A program made the position numbers and the translations under genes. A DNA stretch of 40,354 bases, taken from IMG/VR virus record IMGVR_UViG_3300027872_000013, positions 1 to 40,354 of that record, one strand, 5' to 3'. Shown one piece after another: positions 5,576-24,812 of this stretch; position 1 is the first letter of the stretch; every line of letters starts with the position of its first letter. The DNA comes from a virus. The notes under the pieces were generated by a model. That model made no database searches. It was not told the DNA's origin and was given only the letters and a program-made list of their open reading frames with translations.

Positions 5576-5690
5576 CCAACCGTCGGCACCCCCCGCCGAC
5601 CAGGCCGCGCGGCTCAAGGCCCTACGGGCGCGCAATCTGCAGCGCCTCGGCCTTGGGCCGCGCACCGCCGTTATCTCGCGCTCGCGATAG
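5565..5690 (+). CDS. Very small basic protein (41 aa)
   Basis: 41-codon frame, MAASQPSAPPADQAARLKA..., ending RTAVISRSR. It overlaps the end of the 71-aa gene by 11 nt and is preceded by GGTGGTCAATC, the same ribosome-binding box used in the leftward operon. It overlaps the 3' end of the convergent tail gene by 20 nt. Its size makes it tentative. Confidence 0.38.
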   Translation: MAASQPSAPPADQAARLKALRARNLQRLGLGPRTAVISRSR

Positions 5691-6273
5691 CCCGGGCGAG
5701 CGCTTTTCCAAAATTCCGCTCCCAGCGTTTCCGTACCGTCTTGTTGACCGTGTCGACAAAGCCAAACCTGGGCTCAATGCGCGCGGTCTGAATGAGCAGG
5801 TAAAGCACCTCGGCGCGTTTGCGTTTGGTGCCTCGCTTGATAATCGCGGGCACGCCCTTTTTGGTTTCGCCTCGGTAGACGTTCTTTTTTTTCAGCTGAG
5901 CCGCCGGGCGACGCCCTTTCGTCAGCACGCGCGTTTTGGCGAGCCGCGCCAGCGCCCCCACCGGCACCGCAATGGCACGGCCTCGAGGCGTCTTGACGCC
6001 GCCAGATTCCTGTAGGGCCATAAACGGGTCGCGCTGCTCAACCGAGCCCCACAGCCGGTTTTTATTTGACGGTTTGACCTGCACGCCACGCACCACCCAC
6101 GGCCGCCGCACCTTGAAACGCTTGGGCAGCTGCTCGCGCACCTCGTCTTGCGCGTCCTTCAGCGTGAGGTTGAGGCCCAGGCTGGTGGCAAAGGGCAGCT
6201 GTTTGGCCTTTAGCGTGCTGAGCGAAAACACCACCTCGGGCACGTTGACCTCGAGGTCGAATGCCGCCGCCAT
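5671..6273 (-). CDS. Minor tail protein Z-like (tail completion), displaced
   Basis: 200-residue protein resembling the lambda gpZ family of tail-completion/neck proteins. Supporting segments are LPKRFKVRRPWVVRGVQV, the RDPFMALQESGGVKTPRG motif around residue 80, a basic middle with KRxAEVLYLL, and the C-terminal RFGFVDTVNKTVRKRWERNF. In lambda, Z lies between FII and U. Here the FII-like and U-like genes abut at 32858 with no gene between, and the Z-like gene sits about 27 kb away beside early genes. It starts with ATG preceded by GGGGG and is preceded by a terminator-like hairpin. Assignment rests on remembered family pattern. Confidence 0.68.
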   Translation of the reverse strand: MAAAFDLEVNVPEVVFSLSTLKAKQLPFATSLGLNLTLKDAQDEVREQLPKRFKVRRPWVVRGVQVKPSNKNRLWGSVEQRDPFMALQESGGVKTPRGRAIAVPVGALARLAKTRVLTKGRRPAAQLKKKNVYRGETKKGVPAIIKRGTKRKRAEVLYLLIQTARIEPRFGFVDTVNKTVRKRWERNFGKALARAIASAR

Positions 6274-13195: not shown

Positions 13196-13531
13196 CTAGG
13201 TGGCGAGGAAAACCACCAGGTGCACCAGGCCAAGCGAAATTGGCGGGCCTAGCGCGTGGTGCAGGGTGTCGAGCAAGCGGTCGCGCAGGTGCAGTTTGTC
13301 GGCCACGGGTTTGTCGCTTTTCAAAAACTGCACGAGCTCGCGCAGCGCGCCACCGGTGAGCGCGAGCAGCTCGGCAAGCGACCAGGTCAGCCAGGCCGGC
13401 CAGTCGAGCAGGACCCCCGGCACCATGGCCGGCAGCGAATAGGCCGCGCCAAGGCCGGCGTGGCCGAGCACGTCGAGCGCGTAGCGCCAGCCGGAAACCT
13501 CGCCCGATAGCACCTTTTCAATGCGAGCCAC
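13196..13531 (-). CDS. Membrane protein at the end of the lysis cassette (111 aa)
   Basis: 111-residue protein with hydrophobic stretches at about residues 27-55 (GLGAAYSLPAMVPGVLLDW and WLTWSLAELLALT) and at the C-terminus (ISLGLVHLVVFLAT). Three membrane segments are likely, with a cytoplasmic-type basic loop between them (KSDKPVADKLHLRDR). Last gene of the leftward lysis group. Candidate holin-related or accessory membrane protein; no definite family. Confidence 0.55.
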   Translation of the reverse strand: MARIEKVLSGEVSGWRYALDVLGHAGLGAAYSLPAMVPGVLLDWPAWLTWSLAELLALTGGALRELVQFLKSDKPVADKLHLRDRLLDTLHHALGPPISLGLVHLVVFLAT

Positions 13532-13532
13532 G

Positions 13533-13817
13533 CTAGTGGTGCGCCTTGCGATTGTTTACGCGTATGGTTTTGTCGGCCGACATCGTCCACGCGCACCAGG
13601 CGGGTGCCATTGCCAGCTTGGGCGGTTCCTCGCGGGTCGGGGCCACGCACACCACGTCAAACTCGGTTAGCCGCTTGGTGCTGCCCTCGGCGTCGTTTTC
13701 CATGTCGACAAACGCCGCGCCGAGGTCAGGAATGACGACGTACTTTAGCCCACATGCGGGCAGACCAGCTAGCAGCATCACCGACAGGCTCAGCCCGAAT
13801 TTTTGCAGCTTCCGCAT
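13533..13817 (-). CDS. Outer-membrane lipoprotein, candidate o-spanin (Rz1-like)
   Basis: 94 residues with a lipoprotein signal: basic MRKLQK, hydrophobic core FGLSLSVMLLAG and a lipobox LPAC placing the acylated Cys at about residue 22. The gene begins inside the end of the preceding single-TM gene in another frame (overlap 13726-13817), the hallmark of overlapping Rz/Rz1 spanin pairs. The mature part (about 70 residues) is longer than in lambda and contains two more cysteines. Spanins fuse inner and outer membrane at lysis. The role is inferred from architecture. Confidence 0.6.
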   Translation of the reverse strand: MRKLQKFGLSLSVMLLAGLPACGLKYVVIPDLGAAFVDMENDAEGSTKRLTEFDVVCVAPTREEPPKLAMAPAWCAWTMSADKTIRVNNRKAHH

Positions 13818-13956
13818 TGCTTTCCCCCTGCTCGAGTACCACGCCGAGCTCGCCCTCGGCGCGCCCGCGCTTCCTGACGTTGCGAAACACTAGCACCGCG
13901 ATACCCAGAACAATCAGCACCAGAGCACCGGCACCAGCCCACGGCCACGCCCCCAC
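13726..13956 (-). CDS. Inner-membrane protein, candidate i-spanin (Rz-like)
   Basis: 76 residues. N-terminal transmembrane helix (AGAGALVLIVLGIAVLVF, residues about 7-24), a basic stop-transfer (RNVRKRGR) and a helical tail (LEQGESNAEAAKIRAEP). The GTG start abuts the upstream TAG. Its 3' third overlaps the lipoprotein gene in another frame. The RNVRKRGR charge would predict the tail to be cytoplasmic, which disagrees with a normal i-spanin orientation, so the spanin call is tentative. Confidence 0.5.
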   Translation of the reverse strand: MGAWPWAGAGALVLIVLGIAVLVFRNVRKRGRAEGELGVVLEQGESNAEAAKIRAEPVGDAASWSARMWAKVRRHS

Positions 13957-14241
13957 CTATTTGCCCCACGTCTGCACGTCGGGGTCGTTTCGGGCCTTGC
14001 CCCAATTGATCGCAAACGCGTCCACGATTCGCATAACCTTGTTTCCCGACGGGAAAATAGCCGTCAGGACGCCCGCGAGCATGACCAAGCGTGGCAGCCA
14101 AACCGTCAGATAGGATTCGATGCGCGCGCCCCAATCGACCACCGGCTCGAGGCCAACCGCGTCGACGACCTGGCCGCTAGCAAGGCTCGCGAATGCCGCG
14201 AGCATGAGCAAAACCAGCATTTCACCTATTCGAAACTGCAT
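13957..14241 (-). CDS. Small membrane protein, holin candidate (94 aa)
   Basis: Two hydrophobic segments: residues about 7-23 (EMLVLLMLAAFASLASG, signal-anchor or signal-peptide-like) and about 45-63 (TVWLPRLVMLAGVLTAIF), followed by a soluble tail FAINWGKARNDP of a type I recall from phage membrane proteins near lysis genes. ATG preceded by AGGGGGTCAACAAA. Located directly after the endolysin gene. Two-TM size fits a class II holin, but this is inference. Confidence 0.55.
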   Translation of the reverse strand: MQFRIGEMLVLLMLAAFASLASGQVVDAVGLEPVVDWGARIESYLTVWLPRLVMLAGVLTAIFPSGNKVMRIVDAFAINWGKARNDPDVQTWGK

Positions 14242-14253
14242 TTTGTTGACCCC

Positions 14254-14766
14254 CTATTTCCGGCCACCGTGCCGAATTGACAAATGGTTTCCGTCACTAA
14301 AACGACCGCCCCAATACGCCAGCGGGTGCAGGGTTTCCCAGTAATCGCCGAGGCCCTGATACTGTGGGGTTTTCGTCAGGTACTCGCCGGCCGCAGTAAA
14401 CAGGCCGTAGTCGCCGGCCAGGCGTATGCGGTGCAGGCTGCGCACAATCCCAATCGGCCGAAATTTGTGGTGCCCGGGTGCCGCTGGGTGGTGCGCGCCG
14501 TGGCTCTTGTGCTTTTTGCATACCCGACAATGCGAGGCGTTGTAACGCGCCACCGCCTCGCTGCGTTGAAACTCAAAAAGCCTGAGCTCGAGGTCCTCCT
14601 CGGCGCGAACGTGCAAAATAACTAGCGGCTGCAGCGCAGCAAATAGCGATTGCTTACGACCTAGCGGGCCTTTTTCGGTAACGCGCCAGCGTCGCAGCGC
14701 CGCCAGGTAATCGCCCTCGAGCTCGACCAGGGCGCGCCTGGCCGCGTCACGTGCTGCGGTATTCAT
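14254..14766 (-). CDS. Endolysin, M15-type peptidoglycan peptidase
   Basis: 170-residue cell-wall peptidase, probably cleaving peptide cross-links like L-Ala-D-Glu or D-Ala endopeptidases of the M15 fold. The C-terminal domain shows the phage M15 signature: Ser110-x-His112 in IVRSLHRIRLAGD, Asp119, LFTAAGEYLTK, WETLHPLAYWGGRF and the final zinc ligand His161 in DGNHLS. Residues 67-80 (FQRSEAVARYNASHC) match the usual RS-x-x-A segment. There is an unusual CRVCKKHKSHGAHH insertion. ATG overlaps the upstream stop as ATGA. No signal peptide, so export depends on a holin. Confidence 0.78.
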   Translation of the reverse strand: MNTAARDAARRALVELEGDYLAALRRWRVTEKGPLGRKQSLFAALQPLVILHVRAEEDLELRLFEFQRSEAVARYNASHCRVCKKHKSHGAHHPAAPGHHKFRPIGIVRSLHRIRLAGDYGLFTAAGEYLTKTPQYQGLGDYWETLHPLAYWGGRFSDGNHLSIRHGGRK

Positions 14767-15068
14767 GGGAGCTCGACCCCCACCGACGCGCACTTTTCGC
14801 GGTCCTTTAGCTGGCGGCCCAGGCATAGCGACCGCAGCGTTTCACGCTTGGCCTCGGTCGCGGCGTCCTCTGCCTCGGCCCGGTCGGCCAGGCCGACGGT
14901 GAGCTCGACCACGCGCGCAATTGCGTCCTCATTGATTTTTATTTGCCCCTCGCCGTCCGAGGCGCGGGCGTAGTGCCCCACCTGAAACGTTGCAAACGCG
15001 ATAATCCCAGCCGCAGCGACCACGCCGGCGACGGTGATTCCGATGCTTGCCAAGGTTTTGCGCGTCAT
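14763..15068 (-). CDS. Membrane-anchored lysis-cassette protein (101 aa)
   Basis: N-terminal transmembrane helix (residues about 8-28, SIGITVAGVVAAAGIIAFAT) followed by a charged helical region (RAEAEDAATEAKRETLRSL) with two cysteines near the C-terminus (LCLGRQ, EKCASV). Directly upstream of and overlapping the endolysin gene. Topology resembles an i-spanin or a membrane-tethered accessory; which of the two single-TM proteins here is the true spanin partner is unclear. ATG preceded by AGGGGGCAACCT. Confidence 0.6.
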   Translation of the reverse strand: MTRKTLASIGITVAGVVAAAGIIAFATFQVGHYARASDGEGQIKINEDAIARVVELTVGLADRAEAEDAATEAKRETLRSLCLGRQLKDREKCASVGVELP

Positions 15069-15079
15069 AGGTTGCCCCC

Positions 15080-15385
15080 TTACGGGTAAACGGCCCTAAA
15101 AACTAGCGTGATAACACCGCCTAACATGATTGCCGCACCCGTCGCCCAGGCTATGCGCGTGGTTAGCGCGCTCAGCTTGTCGTTGATTTCGTCGAGTGTG
15201 TCGGCGGTTTTTTCGTTTAGGGTGTCCTGTTGTTGCCGGCGTATGTCGGCCTCGCCACCGTGCTGCGCAATCCACGCTCTGACCTCGTCAAGCGTTTTCG
15301 GTCGGTGCTTTCCGTTTGACAATGAAACGCCCTCCAGATCGTCTGCCAGCGTGTAGCCGTCTGCGCCTAGCACCTGGTCGACCAC
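15080..15385 (-). CDS. XhlA-like holin/haemolysin-type membrane protein (101 aa)
   Basis: 101 residues. An amphipathic central coiled coil (TLNEKTADTLDEINDKLSAL) precedes one C-terminal transmembrane helix (AWATGAAIMLGGVITLVFRA). This order, helical N-domain then C-terminal TM, is that of XhlA-type holins. It lies at the head of the lysis cassette. In established systems such proteins permeabilise the inner membrane with a partner holin. Family by topology, not by clear sequence identity. Confidence 0.58.
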   Translation of the reverse strand: MVDQVLGADGYTLADDLEGVSLSNGKHRPKTLDEVRAWIAQHGGEADIRRQQQDTLNEKTADTLDEINDKLSALTTRIAWATGAAIMLGGVITLVFRAVYP

Positions 15386-15389
15386 GCCG

Positions 15390-15593
15390 TCAATCCTTAT
15401 AGCGGTAAATCAACCGAACGGCCTTCGAAATTTCGTCCTCGACGTTTTGGCTCACGACCAGCACCAGGTCGAGGTCGCCGTTGCCGTCGACGACCAGGTC
15501 TATCAGCTCGGCGGCCTTTGCGGAGCGGTCGCGCACGGTGTGGATATGCCGCTGAATTTCGAGCAGCGGAAACTTTGTCGGTGTGCCGGGCAT
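15390..15593 (-). CDS. Small hypothetical protein (67 aa)
   Basis: 67-residue soluble protein starting MPGTPTKFPLLEIQRHIH, with an acidic-hydrophobic stretch VVDGNGDLDLVLVV. The ATG at 15593 has GAGGGGGG 4-9 nt upstream and is preferred over an upstream frame start. It lies 5 nt before the XhlA-like gene. No family recognised; possibly a lysis accessory. Confidence 0.6.
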   Translation of the reverse strand: MPGTPTKFPLLEIQRHIHTVRDRSAKAAELIDLVVDGNGDLDLVLVVSQNVEDEISKAVRLIYRYKD

Positions 15594-15646
15594 TTTCCCC
15601 CCTCGTGCATCATTTCGAAACCGTTGCGACGTCACCTTGCTGACGC

Positions 15647-15955
15647 TTACGGGATTGTGCCCGTAGCGGCACCCATGTCGGCCTTGATTGTAGACTCCGA
15701 GGCTGCGACCTGGTCACGTGCGGAAAGTTTTTGCTGTTTGCTGTCGAGGTCCACCATACCCCTCTGCATAAACCGGGTGGCGCAAATGTTTGCCGACCAG
15801 TCGGCTGGGTTGCCGAGCCGTACCTCGAGCATCGGGCAAAGTCGCGCAAAATGGGCGGTTTGATTTCCGGTAATGACCCTGCATGTATAGTCATCGTCAG
15901 CGGTTGCAATCGAAGCGACCAAAAACAGGGCGATGATTAGCGCTAGTTTTTTCAT
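15647..15955 (-). CDS. Secreted small Cys-rich protein (102 aa)
   Basis: Signal peptide MKKLALIIALFLVASIATA, then a mature domain of about 83 residues with cysteines at YTCRV, RLCPML and NICATR. The ATG at 15955 follows GAGGTG; an ATG four codons upstream overlaps the previous stop as ATGA and is an alternative. The acidic-basic C-terminus is helical. No known family. One of several exported products around the fibre region, either periplasmic or released at lysis. Confidence 0.65.
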   Translation of the reverse strand: MKKLALIIALFLVASIATADDDYTCRVITGNQTAHFARLCPMLEVRLGNPADWSANICATRFMQRGMVDLDSKQQKLSARDQVAASESTIKADMGAATGTIP

Positions 15956-15963
15956 GCCGCACC

Positions 15964-16590
15964 TCATTGTATAATCAAATAAACGGGTTTCGTGGTCGGC
16001 GACGCTGTGGGCGTTGCGGTTGGCGTTGCGGTTGGCGTGGGCGTGGCGGCAGATTCAGCGGCGCGCCATTCTATCGCGTCAATGTTACAAGTCTGCCGCG
16101 CGCCAGGCGAGCCGCCCGACTTGTGGCAGGTAATTTTTACGCAAACGTCGGCTGCAGCGCTGATTAGGTTAGACGTCCAGGCCTCAACGTGAATTGCGCC
16201 GGGCTCGTCGGGCACGTCGATTTCGGGCCCGCCCTCGTGCAGGTCCGCACAATCGGTGCCGTCGTAAATGTCAATCTCAAACGTCGCGGTGCCGGTTTGT
16301 CCTGAGTCAAACTCGCTGGTAAAAATCGCTATTTCCTGGGCGTTGGCGCCATCGTCCAATGCCCCGGCCGCTGACGTGAATTGCAGCATATAGACAGGGT
16401 TAACGTTATTGCTGTCTGCGGTGCACCAGTCGCCACCTGGCGAGTCGGGGTCGTCGTCGAGGGTTTCGTGCGCGGTTGGGGTGCCGTCGCAATCGTTAGC
16501 GGTCGACGTGATTGTGCCGTTTGGGGTTTCTACCGTCAGGGCCCACGCGGGGGTCGCCAGTAGTAAAAGGACCAGCGGCAGCCAGCGCAC
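15964..16590 (-). CDS. Secreted protein with Thr-Pro repeat tail (208 aa)
   Basis: Signal peptide (MRWLPLVLLLLATPAWA), then a beta-rich domain of about 150 residues with spaced cysteines (DCDGTP, WCTADS, TDCADL, VCVKITCHKSG, QTCNID) and a low-complexity PTPTATPTATPTASPTT linker near the C-terminus ending in KPVYLIIQ. This is the layout of a cell-surface or extracellular protein with a Thr/Pro stalk. Acidic DDDPDSPGG segment may bind Ca. GTG start shares its G with the stop of the giant fibre gene, so both belong to one transcript. No cytoplasmic role expected. Confidence 0.65.
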   Translation of the reverse strand: MRWLPLVLLLLATPAWALTVETPNGTITSTANDCDGTPTAHETLDDDPDSPGGDWCTADSNNVNPVYMLQFTSAAGALDDGANAQEIAIFTSEFDSGQTGTATFEIDIYDGTDCADLHEGGPEIDVPDEPGAIHVEAWTSNLISAAADVCVKITCHKSGGSPGARQTCNIDAIEWRAAESAATPTPTATPTATPTASPTTKPVYLIIQ

Positions 16591-19500
16591 TAATCCACCT
16601 CAACCGTTAGCACAATTGAAAGCTGGTCGACGTTGCCAGACTCCGACACCAGCACCACCGAAAGTTTATCATAGGCCACAAACCCGGTTGCGTTTAACGC
16701 GTCGTCGTCCGAGGGCGAGGTGGTACACGTGAGCGTCGTCGAGGCCACCGCGTCGAGGATTGACGTCGTGCAGGTATCGTCGCCGAGGTCCTCGCCATCG
16801 CATATATTGATAATAACGTTAGTTCCACCGAAGGCCTCGCAGCGAACCTTGGTCATTGTGCCCGTGAAAGGCGGCAGCACAATTAAAAACTCATCGTTAG
16901 TCGGGTTGGGCGACGGCACGAGAAGCTGAAACCCTGTCCTGGTGTCGAGGCTGGCGTGCACGTCGGCAGCCACGAGGCTATCGGCGTCGATTCCGGCGCT
17001 GCCGTGTGTGTGTAGGGCGTCGGCATTGCTGGCATCGGTCAGCGTGTCGAGCTCGGGCCCGGTGCCCGTGGTGTCGCTGTGCGAGGCCACGGTGTGCGCC
17101 TCGGCGTGCAGGTCGGTGAGCTCGGCCCATTTCGTCGCGTCAATGGTGACCACGTCGGTGGTCAGGTCGAAATCGGCCGCCGCGAGCGACACCAGGCGCA
17201 GGTCGACGCCCACCTTGGGGGTGGCTGCCGTTATGGCCAGGCCGCCGCCATCGCTCGAGTGCGTGTTGCTTTCGCCACCCGCTACACCGCACGCGCCGCC
17301 GGCGCCGATTATATCGCCGTTTACGTCAAACTCCGCACACTGGCCAGTCGTCGCCGTGCCGGTAATCAGCTTTAGGTCGATGCCAGACTTAATCGCCGTC
17401 GCGACCTCGGTTATAGCGTCGATATGGTCAGCCACCACCGGGTGCCCGGTGTCGGTGTGAACGTGTAAGGCGTCGGCGTTGCTGGCATCGGTCAGCGTGT
17501 CGAGCTCGGGCCCGGTGCCTGTGGTGTCCGAATGCGAGGCCACGGTGTGCGCGTCGGCGTGGTGGGCGCTGCCGCTGTGTGAGGCGTTTACGGTCATAGA
17601 CTGGTATGTGCCGCCGAGCTCGCCAGTCATTGCAGCCGATTTGAAAAAGAACGGGTCCATAGCGCGGTTTGGGGTGAAGGCGTTAATCTCGGACGTCGTC
17701 CCGATTTCCATCGTGCCTCGAGCGATTACTGTCGCAGCGTCGACATTGAGACCCGACAGCGTGCCGGTAACGTCGGTTTCCAAATCAATAGGGTGCAGGT
17801 CGCCGATTTCCTGCTGCACAAACGCGGTCGAGGCGGCCGAGGTGTCGCTATCGTCTGGCGCCGCCGTTGCGACGTCGGCCGTGCCGCTCGTAAAATCGCT
17901 GGCACCTGTGAAATTATTATCCCCGGTTATTGTGTTATCGGAATTGAGGCCGACTTTGACCGCGTCGGAAAATGTTTCGAGGCCGTGCAAGCGCCAGCGG
18001 TCGTCGGTCCTATCCAATACCCATTCCGACGGGTAGTCCTCGAGGGTCGCCACGTCGACGTCGCCGCAAATTAGGTGCGGCGTATTGACCACCAGAAAGT
18101 CGCTGAAAGCGTCGCAATTCCCGTTGCTGCCGGCGGTGGTGTCCTCAACGCAATTGCCGCCAGGCGTGCCGCAGGTCTGAAATACGTCGGTGCAAACCGT
18201 CGTGCAATCAAAAATTAGATGATTGAGCAGGGTCGACCCGTCGGAGTCGCACAGGCCGTTTGGGTTTCCGGTATTTTCAGGCGGGCCGCCGGCGTTGAAT
18301 AAATCGGTGCAGCCCTCGTCGGTCGAGGTCACCACCTTGATAACCTGGCCGTCCTGGCCACCGTAGAAATTTAGAATCGTTACCGGGGCAATCGTCGCGT
18401 GTGGAAACGACGTTGTCCCGTCGGCGTCGCAGAATGTATCGGCTGCCCCGACCCGCTGCGGCAGGGCAGCTGTCGACGTCGACCCGTCAAAATCGCAAAA
18501 CCCGTTGGAGCTGCCCGAGCACTCGAAATTGCCGTCGGTGCAAGGGCTGCCAAAGCGGCTGTTGAAAACGTCAACACAGTGTGCATCGAAAGCATCGTTG
18601 CACTCAAACGAATAAAATAGCTGGCCCTGTGCGACGTTAGGCGTCGGGTCAGCCTCGGGGAAATACTCAGGCTCGCCTAAGCCTAGAAACCCGCGTGTAA
18701 TAATATCGTCGGCGTGCGTTACGCCGAAAATCCTGGGGTTGATCTCGTGCAAAAAATTGCCGTCGTAATGCTCATCGTTTTTTTGAATGCCCGTCATTTG
18801 CCACAGCACGCCCGGGTTTTCGCCGCCACCCGTTACGCTTTGCCGGCTCGTAAACTCGATCCAGTCTTGATTAGACAGCGAAATGTTAGCCGTGCCGCAG
18901 ACCAGCTCGGTGGACGTGGAGCAATGAAAAACAGTCGTCGCCCTTATGTCGATGCTGATAACCTGCCCGAACTCGTCCGCGTTGGCGTTGGTCGTCCCGT
19001 CGGAGTCGCAAAGGTTATCATGGCACGGCGCCGAGGCTGCGCACGAGGTTTGCGGCGGCCCGCCGGTATCCCAAAAATCGTCGCAGCCCCAGGAAAAATC
19101 ATCATAGTTAGCCGTAATCGACGACGGCCCCACGAAACGCGACCCGCCCTTGACGTCGGGGGCTCCGTTGGCGAGCGGTAGGACCCGAACGCGATTCCAA
19201 ACCGAATTGGCGTCGGACTGGTCGGTTACCCATGTCTCGGTAATGTCGAAGGTGTCAGCGGTGACCGCCTGCACCACCTCGGCGCCGTTGTAGTTGATTG
19301 TGCCGCGTATAACCAGGTCCTCGCCTACAGCTAGCCCGTGAGCAGTAGACGTCATGGTAATGTCGAGGCCGTTCTGCACCATTAGCGTAATTAGCGCGGG
19401 TGCAGCTTCCCCGTGGCGGCGCCCCTCAACCGCAAAATCGCCAGGCTGTTTTAGCTCGCCACCGGTGAGCGGTAGGTATCCGGTGAGCCCTGCCGTGTGA

Positions 19501-21776
19501 TCGTGGGAATCGTCCGCGACCTCGCCGGCAGCGTCGAGGTCGGCCGCGTTGCTGAAATCGGTAATCAGCCCGGCCGAGTCGGCGTCGGCAATGTAGTGGT
19601 GCGCCTCGGTGGCTGTCGCGTCGCAGTATTCGAGCACGTCGAAATTGCTTACCGCCATCCTGCCGAACGTGCTTGCGCCGCAGGTAAGCGGCCCGCCGCC
19701 GATACTGTCGATAAATCCCGCTTCATCGCTTTCGGTGTTGATTGTGCCGCCGGTAACCGATAGGCCGTCGCCGACGTCGGCCTCGAGCAGCACGTCGGCG
19801 GCCAGCTTTGACGAGGCGATATTGGCACCGCCGGCCACGTCGGCGTCGACGATGCCCGAAATCCCAGCGCTCGCGTGCACGTGCAGGCCGTCCGAGTTGC
19901 TCGTATCGGTCAGGGTGTCGAGCTCGGGCCCGGTGCCCGTGGTGTCCGAATGCGAGGCCACGGTGTGCGCCTCGGCGTGGTGGGCGGTGCCGCCGTGCGT
20001 GGCGTTTACTGTAGGGGTGTCAATATCGCCGCCGAGCTCGCCGCCGGCCAGGGCGTAATTGCCCAGCTTGAGCGGCGTCACCGCGCGGGCGTCGTCGAGG
20101 CCGGCGTCGGTTTCGGGCTGGGTGGCGAGCTCGAGAATCCCCGCGACCAGCTCGGTGGCTGCCGCCTCGTCGGCGTGGTGGGCGGTGCCGCTGTGCGTTG
20201 CGGCCACCGTGGGGGTGTCAATATCGCCGGCGAGCTCGCCACCGACCAGGGCGTAATTGCCCAGCTTGAGCGCGGTCACCGCGCGGGCGTCGTCGGCCCC
20301 GGCGTCGGTTTCGGGCTGGGTCGCGAGCTCGAGGACGCCCGCGACCGACTCGCTGGCTGCCGCCTCGTCGGCGTGGTGGGCGGTGCCGCTGTGGTTGCTT
20401 TCGACCACCGTAACGGCAAAGGTGCCGGTGACGTCGCCTAAAAGAGGTTTACGGTGGAGCGTAAAAGGCACAACAACGTCGGACGTTTCGGCGCCGGCGT
20501 CGACCTCCGCCTGGGTCGCGAGAGTGGAAACGCCAGCGGCGCCAATGGTCGCGATTGTCACGCTCGAGCCGGGAAGCGTGCCGGAAACATCGGCGCCGAG
20601 GTCCACCTGTGTGCTGTGCGAGGCAATGGTGTGCGTTTCGGGGTGCAGGTCGGTGAGCTCGGCCCATTTTGTCGCGTCAATGGTGACCACGTCGGCGGCC
20701 AGGTCGAAATCAGCCGCCGCCAGCGACACCAGGCGCAGGTCGGCGAGCACCTTAGGGGTGGCCGCTGTAATGGCCAGGCCGACGCCATCGCTCGAGTGCG
20801 TGTTGACCTCGCCGCCGCTGGGTGCGTCAACCCAACTAGCGTTACCCTCTCCGTCGGTCTGGAAAAGCTGTAGGTTGGTGCCTTTGTTGTTTGGGAGCGT
20901 TAAAAACCAGTCTGTAAAAACCTCGTCTGGCACATCGACCTGAACAAAACTCCCAACGCCGGTGTCGTCATTTAGCCGTAACGCCCCGTCGGTGGGCGAG
21001 CCTATGCCGACGTCGCGGCCGATATTGACGAGCGCCGAACCCGTTTGCTGGCCGTGCACCAGTATGCTGTTATCGGTGGTGAAATTTCGGTTAATGTCAA
21101 ACAACGCGCAGCGCTGACCGTTACAGGAAACCGACACGCCGCCGTCGCCGGGCACCGCCTGATAAAATCCGGTGTTAAGGTCTGACGACCAGACGAGGCT
21201 CGGCGCGCCGAACGTGCCGTCAGGTAGCTGCACTTGGGTGGTAAAAATGCTATCCGAATGCGAGGCCACCGTGTGCGTTTCGAGGTGCAGGTCGGTGAGC
21301 TCGGCCCACTTTGTCGCGTCAATGGTAATCACGTCGGCGGCCAGGTCGAAATCAGCCGCCGCCAGCGACACCAGCCGCAGGTCGATGCCCACCTTGGGCA
21401 GGGCGGCCGTAATGGCCAGGCCGCCGCCATCGCTCGAGTGCGTGTTGGTTTCGCCAGCACCGCCGGCAACGCCGCCCGAGTCGGGTATCCAAGCGGCGGC
21501 CAACGCCGACCACCTGCAGACATTCTCGCCACCGCCCAGGCCGGCATCGCCCAGGTTTCCGCATTCGGTGGGTGTGGCGGCGTCGATAATCACAATGCGC
21601 ACGCCGTTGAGCTCGGGCGAGCAGACTAGCGAAATCACTTCGGCAACCGTGCACTCGACGGGTGCCCGAATGCCAGGTGTCGAGGGCCCTGGTGGTGCAA
21701 AGGGCTGCGCAAAGGTGGTCAGCGGTGCGAGGAATAGGGCAGCGACCAGCGCGAGGACCGCACCGGCTCGGGTCAT
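16590..21776 (-). CDS. Giant repetitive fibre/adhesin with N-terminal Sec signal (1728 aa)
   Basis: Largest protein in the window, in the tail-fibre position. Phage-fibre repeats are evident: LATQPETDAGADDARAVT and THSGTAHHADEAAA blocks, HTVASHSDTTGTGPELDTL units (at least three), and three modules NTHSSDGGGLAITAA ... TIDATKWAELTDLH. Residues about 890-1240 instead form a Cys-rich zone with CDSDGTT, CDFDGST, CDADGTT and CDSDGST, suggestive of disulfides and Ca binding. The N-terminus MTRAGAVLALVAALFLAPL is a clear signal peptide, odd for a virion protein assembled in the cytoplasm. ATG overlaps the upstream stop as ATGA. Either a tail fibre with an unusual leader or a lysogen surface adhesin. 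Confidence 0.75.
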   Translation of the reverse strand: MTRAGAVLALVAALFLAPLTTFAQPFAPPGPSTPGIRAPVECTVAEVISLVCSPELNGVRIVIIDAATPTECGNLGDAGLGGGENVCRWSALAAAWIPDSGGVAGGAGETNTHSSDGGGLAITAALPKVGIDLRLVSLAAADFDLAADVITIDATKWAELTDLHLETHTVASHSDSIFTTQVQLPDGTFGAPSLVWSSDLNTGFYQAVPGDGGVSVSCNGQRCALFDINRNFTTDNSILVHGQQTGSALVNIGRDVGIGSPTDGALRLNDDTGVGSFVQVDVPDEVFTDWFLTLPNNKGTNLQLFQTDGEGNASWVDAPSGGEVNTHSSDGVGLAITAATPKVLADLRLVSLAAADFDLAADVVTIDATKWAELTDLHPETHTIASHSTQVDLGADVSGTLPGSSVTIATIGAAGVSTLATQAEVDAGAETSDVVVPFTLHRKPLLGDVTGTFAVTVVESNHSGTAHHADEAAASESVAGVLELATQPETDAGADDARAVTALKLGNYALVGGELAGDIDTPTVAATHSGTAHHADEAAATELVAGILELATQPETDAGLDDARAVTPLKLGNYALAGGELGGDIDTPTVNATHGGTAHHAEAHTVASHSDTTGTGPELDTLTDTSNSDGLHVHASAGISGIVDADVAGGANIASSKLAADVLLEADVGDGLSVTGGTINTESDEAGFIDSIGGGPLTCGASTFGRMAVSNFDVLEYCDATATEAHHYIADADSAGLITDFSNAADLDAAGEVADDSHDHTAGLTGYLPLTGGELKQPGDFAVEGRRHGEAAPALITLMVQNGLDITMTSTAHGLAVGEDLVIRGTINYNGAEVVQAVTADTFDITETWVTDQSDANSVWNRVRVLPLANGAPDVKGGSRFVGPSSITANYDDFSWGCDDFWDTGGPPQTSCAASAPCHDNLCDSDGTTNANADEFGQVISIDIRATTVFHCSTSTELVCGTANISLSNQDWIEFTSRQSVTGGGENPGVLWQMTGIQKNDEHYDGNFLHEINPRIFGVTHADDIITRGFLGLGEPEYFPEADPTPNVAQGQLFYSFECNDAFDAHCVDVFNSRFGSPCTDGNFECSGSSNGFCDFDGSTSTAALPQRVGAADTFCDADGTTSFPHATIAPVTILNFYGGQDGQVIKVVTSTDEGCTDLFNAGGPPENTGNPNGLCDSDGSTLLNHLIFDCTTVCTDVFQTCGTPGGNCVEDTTAGSNGNCDAFSDFLVVNTPHLICGDVDVATLEDYPSEWVLDRTDDRWRLHGLETFSDAVKVGLNSDNTITGDNNFTGASDFTSGTADVATAAPDDSDTSAASTAFVQQEIGDLHPIDLETDVTGTLSGLNVDAATVIARGTMEIGTTSEINAFTPNRAMDPFFFKSAAMTGELGGTYQSMTVNASHSGSAHHADAHTVASHSDTTGTGPELDTLTDASNADALHVHTDTGHPVVADHIDAITEVATAIKSGIDLKLITGTATTGQCAEFDVNGDIIGAGGACGVAGGESNTHSSDGGGLAITAATPKVGVDLRLVSLAAADFDLTTDVVTIDATKWAELTDLHAEAHTVASHSDTTGTGPELDTLTDASNADALHTHGSAGIDADSLVAADVHASLDTRTGFQLLVPSPNPTNDEFLIVLPPFTGTMTKVRCEAFGGTNVIINICDGEDLGDDTCTTSILDAVASTTLTCTTSPSDDDALNATGFVAYDKLSVVLVSESGNVDQLSIVLTVEVD
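17121..17268 (-). repeat. Fibre-gene 148-bp repeat, copy A
   Basis: Starts CTCGGCCCATTTCGTCGC and ends CGAGTGCGTGTTG on the plus strand. Mostly identical to 20658-20805 and 21300-21447 and of equal length. It encodes the module ending in TIDATKWAEL. Confidence 0.9.
20019..20414 (-). repeat. Tandem 198-bp repeat in fibre gene (two units)
   Basis: GTCAATATCGCCG begins a unit at 20019 and again at 20217 (198 bp, 66 codons). Each encodes the DIDTPTV ... ALKLGNY module. The units are highly similar by eye. Confidence 0.85.
20658..20805 (-). repeat. Fibre-gene 148-bp repeat, copy B
   Basis: Second copy, differing from A and C by scattered substitutions but no length change. Confidence 0.9.
21300..21447 (-). 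repeat. Fibre-gene 148-bp repeat, copy C
   Basis: Third copy, close to the N-terminal signal-peptide end of the gene. High DNA identity among copies points to recombination between them. Confidence 0.9.
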
Positions 21777-22105
21777 GGCCGCGACGCTGCCGCGACCCAC
21801 AGGCCGGCGACTCCGTCTGGATAGGTGGCCTCGACCCTTCGAAACGTATTGTTATACCGGTGCGGGTTGAATTTTCCCACCGGCACGTTGTCACCTGCGG
21901 CAATGGTGACGGTCGAGCTGTCATGCTGCACCTGGGCGTAGCTGCAGGCCCGCTGTTCGGTCAAGGTCACGCGCAGCGGCACGCCAGACTGATTAAAAAC
22001 AATCAGCTTGCTGTCGCCGTCTTTGTTATCAAACTCGTCGCCGAGGACGTCGGCCGGCACCTGCACCACCGGGTCGTTTGGGCCGAGCAGGTCTAGGATT
22101 GCCAC
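21773..22105 (-). CDS. Small beta-rich tail-region protein (110 aa)
   Basis: 110 residues, no signal peptide, MAILDLLGPNDPVVQVPADV start. Hydrophobic-polar alternation (SKLIVFNQSGVPLRVTL, VTIAAGDNVPVGKFNPH) suggests a beta sandwich. It lies between the fibre-like 339-aa gene and the giant protein, with the giant gene starting on its stop (ATGA). Likely a fibre-attachment or decoration subunit by position only. Confidence 0.62.
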   Translation of the reverse strand: MAILDLLGPNDPVVQVPADVLGDEFDNKDGDSKLIVFNQSGVPLRVTLTEQRACSYAQVQHDSSTVTIAAGDNVPVGKFNPHRYNNTFRRVEATYPDGVAGLWVAAASRP

Positions 22106-22108
22106 GCG

Positions 22109-23128
22109 TCACCTCGGCCCGAAAATGTCGCGGTAGCCACGAATGATAAAAAACGCGTCAAACAGATTCCTGGTTATCCCGTAGGAAATGGCTGGCGTTG
22201 CCGGTGTGGTAATGGGAATCTCGCCGTTTATTGCGTAAGGCGCCGAATCCTGCGACCCGTGAATCCGGCAATAAAGCAAAGCATCGTCGACAATCGAGGG
22301 GTCAGTCGCGCCCAATGTCAGGGTGCCAGTCGCTCCGTCGATTCCCAATACCACCATGCCGTTGGCCGTCGTGCCCCTGCCGGCCATATTGACAACCGCT
22401 GCAAATGCGGTTGCGGGCAGGTTAATGGGCAGGTTTGACCAGGTCGTTTTATCTTCCAAATCGGTGAGGGTCAGCTCGAATCGCAATCCCGCGTCGGGGC
22501 TTTTGAAAATGACCAGGCCGCCGGGCAGATATTGCGCCGGCGTAAAATTCTGGGCGCCGTTATTCCAGACGGAACCCACGTTGCGTCGCGTCACGTCGGC
22601 AGTTTTGTAACCGGCCTTTGTGCCGTCGGGCGGGTCGGGTGCGGTGGTCGAAATTTGCACGTCGAGAACGCCGGCGTTGTTCCGAACGTACAAATAAAGC
22701 GGCTGGTCGGGCGCCTCGGTGCCGTCGAGGTCGGTTGCCATGTCCCAAACAATTGGCCCGGCGTGATTAAAAAACACGTCGTCGATACCCACCTGCACGT
22801 CGGTGCCGTGCAGGGGTTGCAACTCAATAGTGCCGTTACCCGTAATCTCGAGGTGACCGCGCAGGGTGCCCTCGGGCAGCCCGAGCCCCACCACAACGTT
22901 GATTGCCGTTAGCAGGTCATTGTCACCACCGGGGCCCTTTGTTGGTGTGACGCTGCCGGCGTCAATGACCGCGCGCAAAATCGCTTGCAGGTCGTTGAGG
23001 AAATCGGGCGAAATAATGGTTGCCGGGTCACCACCGCCAGGGTTGCCAATCGTCCACCACCCTTCAGCGCCCGCCGCTATAATGGCGTCGCGGGTAGCCT
23101 TCGCGCTGGCGTTGTCAATCTTAATCAT
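22109..23128 (-). CDS. Putative tail fibre protein (339 aa)
   Basis: 339 residues. N-terminal helical region (KIDNASAKATRDAIIAAG; NDLQAILRAVIDAG) then a beta-rich body (LRGHLEITGNGTIELQPL, VDDALLYCRIHGS) and a terminal domain FDAFFIIRGYRDIFG. In Mu-type phages the first gene after gp48 is the fibre gene, and position supports this role. No receptor-binding domain could be named. Immediately upstream of the 110-aa gene with a 3-nt gap. Confidence 0.68.
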   Translation of the reverse strand: MIKIDNASAKATRDAIIAAGAEGWWTIGNPGGGDPATIISPDFLNDLQAILRAVIDAGSVTPTKGPGGDNDLLTAINVVVGLGLPEGTLRGHLEITGNGTIELQPLHGTDVQVGIDDVFFNHAGPIVWDMATDLDGTEAPDQPLYLYVRNNAGVLDVQISTTAPDPPDGTKAGYKTADVTRRNVGSVWNNGAQNFTPAQYLPGGLVIFKSPDAGLRFELTLTDLEDKTTWSNLPINLPATAFAAVVNMAGRGTTANGMVVLGIDGATGTLTLGATDPSIVDDALLYCRIHGSQDSAPYAINGEIPITTPATPAISYGITRNLFDAFFIIRGYRDIFGPR

Positions 23129-23140
23129 GCCGGGCCCTCG

Positions 23141-23734
23141 CTAGGTGTATAGAAACAGCAGGTGGATATGCGCCTGTTTGAAATCCTCGAGCACGCATTC
23201 GAGCAGGTCGTTGCCAAAAAAGGCCAGCGGGTCGCCAGCTGCAGACTGGCCCACCCGGGCAAACTGCACCGTTTCAAGCGCTGCGTTAATGCCCAGCACA
23301 AACCACCATTCTAAATCCCAGGCCGGCTCGCCCGCCGGGTCACCGGGTGCGCTCGGCGTGTATTCGGTTATCGTAATTGTGAACCCGACCGAAGCGGCCA
23401 GGTCGATATAATCCTGCGGCAGATACCCGCCCGCGTCGGTGATTTTGGCGGTTAGCGCTGAGCGCCGCAGGCCAATGGTTTGGCCGAGCTCAAGGCACGC
23501 GCCTGGCAGGTCGGCGTCAAACTCCCAGTCGGCTAGCAGCTCGGTGGTGGTCCTCGGGTCGGCCTCCTCGAGTAGCGCCTGGGCGCGCGATTCGACACGC
23601 GCGAGCTCGTCGCCCCAGGCCCACAGCAGATTTTTGAGCGTTGACGAAAGCGCCCGGCGAGGCCACGCAGGGCCGCGCGGCAGCAGATTGCTTAGCGCGT
23701 CGCGGTAATCCTCGGCGGAAAACACGTTAAACAA
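23141..23734 (-). CDS. Baseplate protein gp48-like (Mu gp48/YmfQ family)
   Basis: 197 residues matching the Mu gp48/DUF2313 family of baseplate wedge or fibre-linking proteins: YRDALSNLLPRGPAWPRR near the N-terminus, LLWAWGDELARVESRAQALL, EADPRTTTELLADWE, then a C-terminal domain with GYLPQDY. Follows the gp47-like gene with an 8-nt overlap, as in Mu-like genomes. Length normal. Confidence 0.82.
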   Translation of the reverse strand: MFNVFSAEDYRDALSNLLPRGPAWPRRALSSTLKNLLWAWGDELARVESRAQALLEEADPRTTTELLADWEFDADLPGACLELGQTIGLRRSALTAKITDAGGYLPQDYIDLAASVGFTITITEYTPSAPGDPAGEPAWDLEWWFVLGINAALETVQFARVGQSAAGDPLAFFGNDLLECVLEDFKQAHIHLLFLYT

Positions 23735-24812
23735 AGGTTACCGTGCCTCGCGTCGACAGCTCATCGGTGGCCGAAACCACGTCGGCGGCAGGCACCGTTA
23801 CCGCGTTGTCAAACTCGCCTGCCGCGTTGGAAACCGCCTCGCGGATTCGCGACAGGAAAAGCGTACCGCCCGGTGTGGCCTCGCGCGCGTGCAGGTCGTC
23901 GAGCTCGGCCTCAACCGCGAGGCGTATCTCGGCCGTGTCGGGTGTTATGGTTATGGTGTAGGCCTGCGCCAGTAACGTGGGCGCAGCCACAATCATGTCG
24001 GCGGTGGCGGGTCGGCCGACGGTTTGCCCGCTCTCAGGGTCAACGTGGCTATTGAGGTAGGCAATCATGGCGGTGATTTCGCCGGCGTCGGGGAGTATCG
24101 AAACCGGGTCACCGTCCTGCACAAACAGCACCGTCACCTGTCCGATGCCCGGCATTTCGCCAAACGCCCACGCCCGCGTCGTGCCCGCGACCTCGAGCGC
24201 CCACGCGATATAATCAGACTCGTGACCCCCTCGAGGCGGCCGGCGTATCCGCAGCAGCACGCGCTCGCGCAGGGCGTCGTCGGTTTCCTCGTCAGAGCCG
24301 CCAATCAGGCCCCCCGTGGCCACCGTGCAGGTCGGGTCAACGCCCGGCGCTGGGCTGATAAACGTCAAGGTGACGCCCACCACGCTATTGGCATCGAAAC
24401 CCACGTCTGTGCTGTCAAATGTCGCCACCGCCGTGCCGCCTGAAATCACGACCGTGCTCTGCACGGCAAACTCGACACCGTCGCCTCGGATAGCGAGCGC
24501 GCCGGCTGTGATTTCGGCGCCGTTAGTACCCGTGCAATCAACCGGCCCCGTCGCGACCGTGCCCGCCAGCCTCGCCACACCGCGCAGCGACGCGTGCCGC
24601 GCCAGGTGCTCGGTGTCGGCCTGGTCGACCAGGATTTGCCTCGAAATATAAACCTGGTGGCCATAGAGGCCGTGCACCGCGCCCGCGTTGACCACCGCGA
24701 GCACCCGCAGCACCGCGCGCCGCATGAGCGCGTCCGCGCCAGCAATGCGTGAGTTAATGTCGGCAATTGCGCGGTCGATCAGCTCGCTAAGGGTCGGTCG
24801 GCTAAAGGCCAC
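23727..24812 (-). CDS. Baseplate J-like protein (Mu gp47-like)
   Basis: 361-residue baseplate wedge protein of the Mu gp47/P2 gpJ family. Typical features: RPTLSELIDRAIADINSR start, ADALMRRAVLRVLAVVNAG, AVHGLYGHQVYISRQIL, residues about 180-250 with SDEETDDALRERVLLRIR and RPPRGGHESDYIAWALEV, which is the diagnostic J-family segment. Forms the hexagonal baseplate rim that triggers sheath contraction. Overlaps gp46-like by 11 nt. Confidence 0.88.
   Translation of the reverse strand: MAFSRPTLSELIDRAIADINSRIAGADALMRRAVLRVLAVVNAGAVHGLYGHQVYISRQILVDQADTEHLARHASLRGVARLAGTVATGPVDCTGTNGAEITAGALAIRGDGVEFAVQSTVVISGGTAVATFDSTDVGFDANSVVGVTLTFISPAPGVDPTCTVATGGLIGGSDEETDDALRERVLLRIRRPPRGGHESDYIAWALEVAGTTRAWAFGEMPGIGQVTVLFVQDGDPVSILPDAGEITAMIAYLNSHVDPESGQTVGRPATADMIVAAPTLLAQAYTITITPDTAEIRLAVEAELDDLHAREATPGGTLFLSRIREAVSNAAGEFDNAVTVPAADVVSATDELSTRGTVTFV

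Follow-up and report, generated by a model that had tools for sequence, protein, structure and literature searches.

Why would a tailed phage, the textbook assembly of which is cytoplasmic, place signal peptides on a tail fibre and on the products of the genes next to it? The question is raised by three consecutive late genes of the window, i.e. the whole stretch of 40,354 bases analysed here, which makes up a single IMG/VR virus record. The minus strand of the window encodes a terminase, a portal, a fused protease/major head protein, a sheath, a tube, a tape measure and a Mu-type baseplate, and a family search gives an integrase match at one end. As read from these genes, the phage is temperate, since it has this integrase match, and has a contractile tail of the Mu type. 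Among isolates, it is closest to phages of proteobacteria: its gp47 has a 47% match in Bordetella phages, and its terminase one of 47% in phages of Acidithiobacillus and Roseobacter. The GC content of the window is 0.61–0.66 (63.6% given for the phage). Bacteroidota hosts use few Shine-Dalgarno sites; as Shine-Dalgarno cores precede 11 of the 29 gene starts of the window, against 13% of random positions, a typical Bacteroidota host is unlikely.

The genes of the baseplate wedge (23141–24812, minus strand like the other features of the late region given below), assigned to the Mu gp48/gp47 type by family matches, are followed in the order gp47, gp48 by those of a 339-aa ordinary fibre or anchor protein (22109–23128; phrog_34307, 5e-6; phrog_1858, tail fiber, 1e-4), a 110-aa protein (21773–22105), a 1728-aa fibre (16590–21776), a 208-aa protein (15964–16590) and a 106-aa protein (15647–15967). 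The ATG of the 1728-aa fibre gene overlaps, as ATGA, the stop of the 110-aa gene, which lies between both fibre genes and is translationally coupled to the exported one; the 208-aa gene starts at a GTG in a TAGTG overlap and the 106-aa gene in another ATGA overlap. A chimera generated by assembly was considered and rejected because the signal and the fibre motif share a single open frame, which an overlap couples to the late gene upstream of it.

The three predicted signals are MTRAGAVLALVAALFLAPLTTFA for the fibre (21708–21776; cleavage TFA/QP), MRWLPLVLLLLATPAWA for the 208-aa protein (16540–16590; AWA/LT) and MRCGMKKLALIIALFLVASIATA for the 106-aa protein (15899–15967; ATA/DD). Each consists of a short positive n-region, a hydrophobic core of 9–16 residues and an AXA-type site, which is the n-h-c organization of a Sec/signal peptidase I substrate. 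They were scored with a simple predictor of our own, the weights of which come from 18 E. coli signals and which places 13 of these 18 controls above 9 in leave-one-out; the fibre scores 13.6, the 208-aa protein 11.3 and the 106-aa protein 11.8. Only two other late genes of the window, both of membrane/lysis type, score above 7, and none of the genes for the head, tail or baseplate has a signal-like score; the 110-aa and 339-aa proteins are likewise unsignalled. Scores of 9 or more are reached by 14 of 2181 complete ORFs of related phage loci (0.64%) and by a single one of the 558 ORFs with a length of at least 300 aa, so that about 8e-6 runs of three signalled genes would be expected among 31 late genes if genes were independent. 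A second, less strict rule recovers all 18 controls, along with 2.2% of background ORFs, and picks out the same three genes together with a membrane protein and a lipoprotein of the probable lysis region. Thus, both rules agree with the first-pass annotation, which had noted signal peptides on three consecutive genes including that of the 1728-residue fibre. The Thr-Pro stalk that it had reported in the 208-aa product is also seen, at residues 182–200 (15991–16047; ATPTPTATPTATPTASPTT). Export of the three proteins is strongly supported.

The 1728-aa protein matches PHROG tail-fibre families (2e-13), including phrog_910/972, and T4-type gp34 structures (5e-10). These matches are carried by ELATQxETDAG repeats, and the gp34-like region with its ELATQPETDAG repeats (residues 414–597; 19986–20537) is homologous to the repeat region of the solved T4 gp34, the proximal subunit of the long tail fibre (PDB 9x3r, 9f4a). 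A second repeat (NTHSSDGGGLAIT...IDATKW) is present three times, at residues 109–161 (21294–21452; ETNTHSSDGGGLAITAA...IDATKW), 323–375 (20652–20810) and 1502–1570 (17067–17273), as delineated from the sequence and from comparison with a signalled fibre of another IMG/VR locus, L185, to which the first copy is homologous (57% over 53 aa, 2e-11). The homology to known fibre repeats and the position of the gene directly after gp47/gp48-type and fibre genes identify the product, at the sequence level, as a real tail fibre that differs from the usual one by the presence of a signal. It is probably an addition to the ordinary fibre of the phage, because the phage also has the unsignalled fibre-like protein encoded at 22109–23128. 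Searches with the whole fibre, its N-terminus, its C-terminus and gp48 gave no useful homologue. No relatives were detected by homologue searches for the 208-aa protein (pLDDT 44 for a single-sequence AlphaFold model) or by family search for the 106-aa protein.

The mature fibre contains 34 cysteines, with a cysteine-rich segment showing CDxDG-type motifs at residues 892–1240 (18057–19103), and the mature 208-aa protein contains six. Altogether, cysteine accounts for 43 of the 1979 residues (2.2%) of the mature exported proteins versus 45 of the 6867 residues (0.66%) of the remaining late proteins (Fisher p 4e-8, residues not being independent); 16 of these 45 belong to the terminase, and the sheath, the tube and the tape measure have none. 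This richness fits oxidative folding outside the cytoplasm, and access of the 34-cysteine fibre to an oxidising compartment is a plausible reason for export in this phage.

The first-pass annotation had considered export unexpected for phage fibres, and the surveys bear this out. Assembly of T4 fibres is cytoplasmic, and none of the 78 complete IMG/VR ORFs that carry the gp34-type motif is signalled, unlike the window fibre. Mu-type phages and prophages (Bordetella PY223, Pseudomonas DVM-2008, Mu gp47-48) share the baseplate genes of the window and have an ordinary fibre gene after gp48, but their fibres are unsignalled: no signal on the fibres after gp48 and no exported cassette were found in the five isolates with the nearest baseplates, and neither a signalled fibre gene nor an exported cassette was found in 18 Pseudomonadota prophage stretches located downstream of the baseplate protein, two of which are short (contig ends). 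The baseplate protein of the window was found in 17 of 399 Pseudomonadota genomes; the fibre search of the same genomes gave only two motif matches, both unsignalled, and the gp47 search of genome contigs gave four distant prophages. In the open-access literature, no description of Sec-exported fibres of tailed phages was found. Phage proteins diversified by diversity-generating retroelements have been stated to lack signal peptides (PMC6199706). Such a retroelement (Avd, reverse transcriptase) lies beside a fibre-region gene in a relative by baseplate, Chromohalobacter phage YPCBV-1 (L159, 14291–17070).

The signalled fibre is nevertheless neither an artefact nor unique. Cellulophaga phages phi10:1 and phi18:3 carry four (gp091-094) and three (gp085-087) consecutive signalled genes, respectively, and gp08 of phiSM is also signalled. 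All of these bear the GenBank note 'experimental MS/MS proteomics analysis', which says nothing on signal removal or stoichiometry and is compatible with co-purified secreted protein or vesicles. In four Cellulophaga phages, five of the 45 MS-listed proteins scored are signalled, the three of phi18:3 being extra. Signalled virion proteins are not universal in Cellulophaga phages, and the portions of phi40:1, phi46:1 and phi14:2 that were scored contain no signalled MS-listed protein. Like the genes of the window, those of phi10:1 and phi18:3 (PHROGs 17619, 11548/37350, 16053/21199) form signalled runs at the end of the late region that encodes tail fibres, and one product, phi10:1 gp094, belongs to a PHROG tail fiber family (6e-120); gp093 is pectate-lyase-like. 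The Cellulophaga products are recorded by MS/MS as structural. They differ from those of the window in that they occur in Bacteroidota hosts, on other virion types, and are not cysteine-rich. Disulphides are therefore not a general reason for export. Neither phi10:1 nor phi18:3 appears among the matches of the window fibre and the 208-aa protein in the phage collection.

When fifteen head, tail and cassette proteins of phi10:1 were compared with 44 kb (27.6–71.4 kb) of phi18:3, only gp092-094 had homologues there, with conserved N-termini (83% identity for gp093, 59% for gp094). The signalled cassette thus seems to travel between phages whose virions are unrelated in other respects. In phiSM, a gp48-type gene is followed by those of unsignalled, MS-listed fibre-position proteins (gp29, gp30), and the signalled protein is encoded separately, so that this phage, like that of the window, has ordinary fibre-position proteins plus a separate exported one. 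Two further cassette proteins, phi10:1 gp095 (L178, 47388–48878) and phiSM gp09 (L180, 7154–10438), are signalled, pectate-lyase-like and homologous to each other (30% over 479 aa), and are not MS-marked as virion proteins. The cassette precedes the lysis genes in phiSM, in phi18:3 and probably in the window, where the three consecutive signalled genes, including that of the fibre, lie between the tail genes and a probable lysis region (13196–15635) delineated by inspection of the sequence (membrane proteins, an M15-like endolysin motif and, at 13533–13817, a lipobox protein; a weak holin-like match of 0.016 and no firm family match). This order is weak evidence for an encounter with the particles at lysis, as fibre genes often neighbour lysis genes in tailed phages anyway.

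Two other groups of loci show signalled fibres. L185 (IMG/VR 3300011431_000001), the only IMG/VR relative of the IDATKW repeat, encodes a signalled fibre of 1552 aa immediately after its tail genes. Next come two further genes with a signal-like N-terminus each, and those of a small lipoprotein and of a subtilisin-like protease with a lipobox. L185 resembles the window by the signalled fibre, the repeat, the two signal-like genes that come next and the position after tail genes, but it has 37% GC, tape-measure-type tail genes and one cysteine in the fibre, and the homology is restricted to the repeat of about 53 aa. The protease of L185 (15530–17668; 712 aa; phrog_3677, 6e-48), located after the signalled cassette, is possibly a co-carried surface protease. 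In a second family of large fibres (L053-L059/L161-L175), all from one metagenome and encoded among baseplate genes, the signal is kept in 15 of 15 loci. The N-terminus always reads MK[KR]...A-Q[FY][ST]PSNNLNYVKLLK or a close variant, with a small insertion ahead of Q in L171, and the first 60 or so residues are conserved while the C-terminal parts diverge. In a subset of eight sequences, pN/pS is 0.33 for the signal, 0.30 for mature residues 1–45 and 0.73 beyond; purifying selection acts on the signal as on the mature residues next to it. The middle domain of the L053-L059 fibres is also found in unsignalled proteins of Flavobacterium phage 11b and Stenotrophomonas phage DLP6, so that the check proposed at first pass, a search for homologues with and without signals, returned both kinds. 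At L173 (9192–9757), two small signal-like genes come right after the signalled fibre, mirroring the three-gene layout of the window.

Taken together, the three genes of the window can be viewed, with moderate confidence, as a Sec-exported appendage cassette whose products are added to the particle within the envelope or once the cell has lysed, which is the most likely of three readings. The process would be as follows. The three genes would be co-translated with the late tail genes, and their products would pass through SecYEG and have their signals cut by signal peptidase I. They would then fold outside the cytoplasm, probably with disulphides, and be kept in the periplasm or at the surface of the cell, while cytoplasmic assembly would produce the tail with its ordinary 339-aa fibre. 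Contact of the exported fibre and both small proteins with the particle would take place during lysis, in the periplasm, or later in the medium, and the three would serve as an extra adhesive appendage. Signal cleavage, disulphides and attachment to the particle are all deduced here for the window proteins. Late attachment is feasible because lysates allow the fibres and tailspikes of T4 and P22 to be added to particles that are already complete. Among the options listed at first pass, action after lysis or an unknown assembly route fits best, because similarly organised, non-homologous signalled proteins are MS/MS-listed in virions of phi10:1, phi18:3 and phiSM; coating of the host cell survives as a rival.

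According to this rival, which is rather unlikely, the exported proteins would stay on the surface of the infected cell or lysogen as an adhesin or receptor mask, causing superinfection exclusion or changed adhesion, and would not be virion parts. The signals and the Thr-Pro stalk would suit such a role, as would the temperate nature of the phage, and none of the three Sec-exported proteins has a known virion docking domain. However, neither the fibre nor the 208-aa protein matches any Pfam family at E<=1, hence none for the C-terminal membrane anchor of a trimeric autotransporter or outer-membrane-anchored adhesin, and all three genes lack the lipobox of superinfection-exclusion lipoproteins of the Llp/Cor type. 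Moreover, coupling ties the three genes to those of the late tail, with no promoter-like site found on the coding strand, the fibre has virion-fibre repeats of the gp34 type, and comparable signalled proteins are recorded from virions.

It is less probable still that the signals feed a free secreted pool before or at lysis (a decoy, a matrix or polysaccharide-binding proteins) that sticks to particles non-specifically. The cassette is common to phages whose other virion proteins are unrelated, so that a dedicated docking site may be unneeded, and several of its members are pectate-lyase-like; nevertheless, conserved mature N-terminal regions combined with diverging C-termini correspond to the usual pattern of a docking end and a receptor end. 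Finally, wrong starts or hydrophobic ends with another function are very improbable, for although the signals are known from prediction, two of the three starts lack a Shine-Dalgarno core and the third is a GTG, the starts are fixed by ATGA/TAGTG overlaps, the three n-h-c signals with AXA-type sites are independent and the signal of another fibre family is under purifying selection.

More generally, part of the adhesive apparatus of some tailed phages may follow an extracytoplasmic, Sec-dependent route, by means of a cassette that matures outside the cytoplasm (in some cases with disulphides), joins the particle during lysis or later and can be passed between phages whose virions are otherwise unrelated. 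This generalization is put forward tentatively, as somewhat short of probable; the window would apparently be a case outside Bacteroidota, its phage having 63.6% GC and a Mu-type tail. If a class of fibres does pass through SecYEG and is joined outside, this would change how host-range proteins fold (disulphides), when they attach and how they are transferred between phages, and a signal peptide would be no ground for excluding a protein as a virion component. The two Cellulophaga phages phi10:1 and phi18:3, which are in culture, lend themselves to a direct test of this question.

Two other genes of the window deserve mention. At 14254–14826, a likely M15-type endolysin, for which neither PHROG nor Pfam gives a match, is recognized by its motif (SLHRIRLAGDYGLF ... 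GGRFSDGNHLS); its gene overlaps a membrane-protein gene (14763–15068). At 5671–6273, distant from the structural block, lies a gene whose product matches a minor tail family (phrog_1924, 3e-29).
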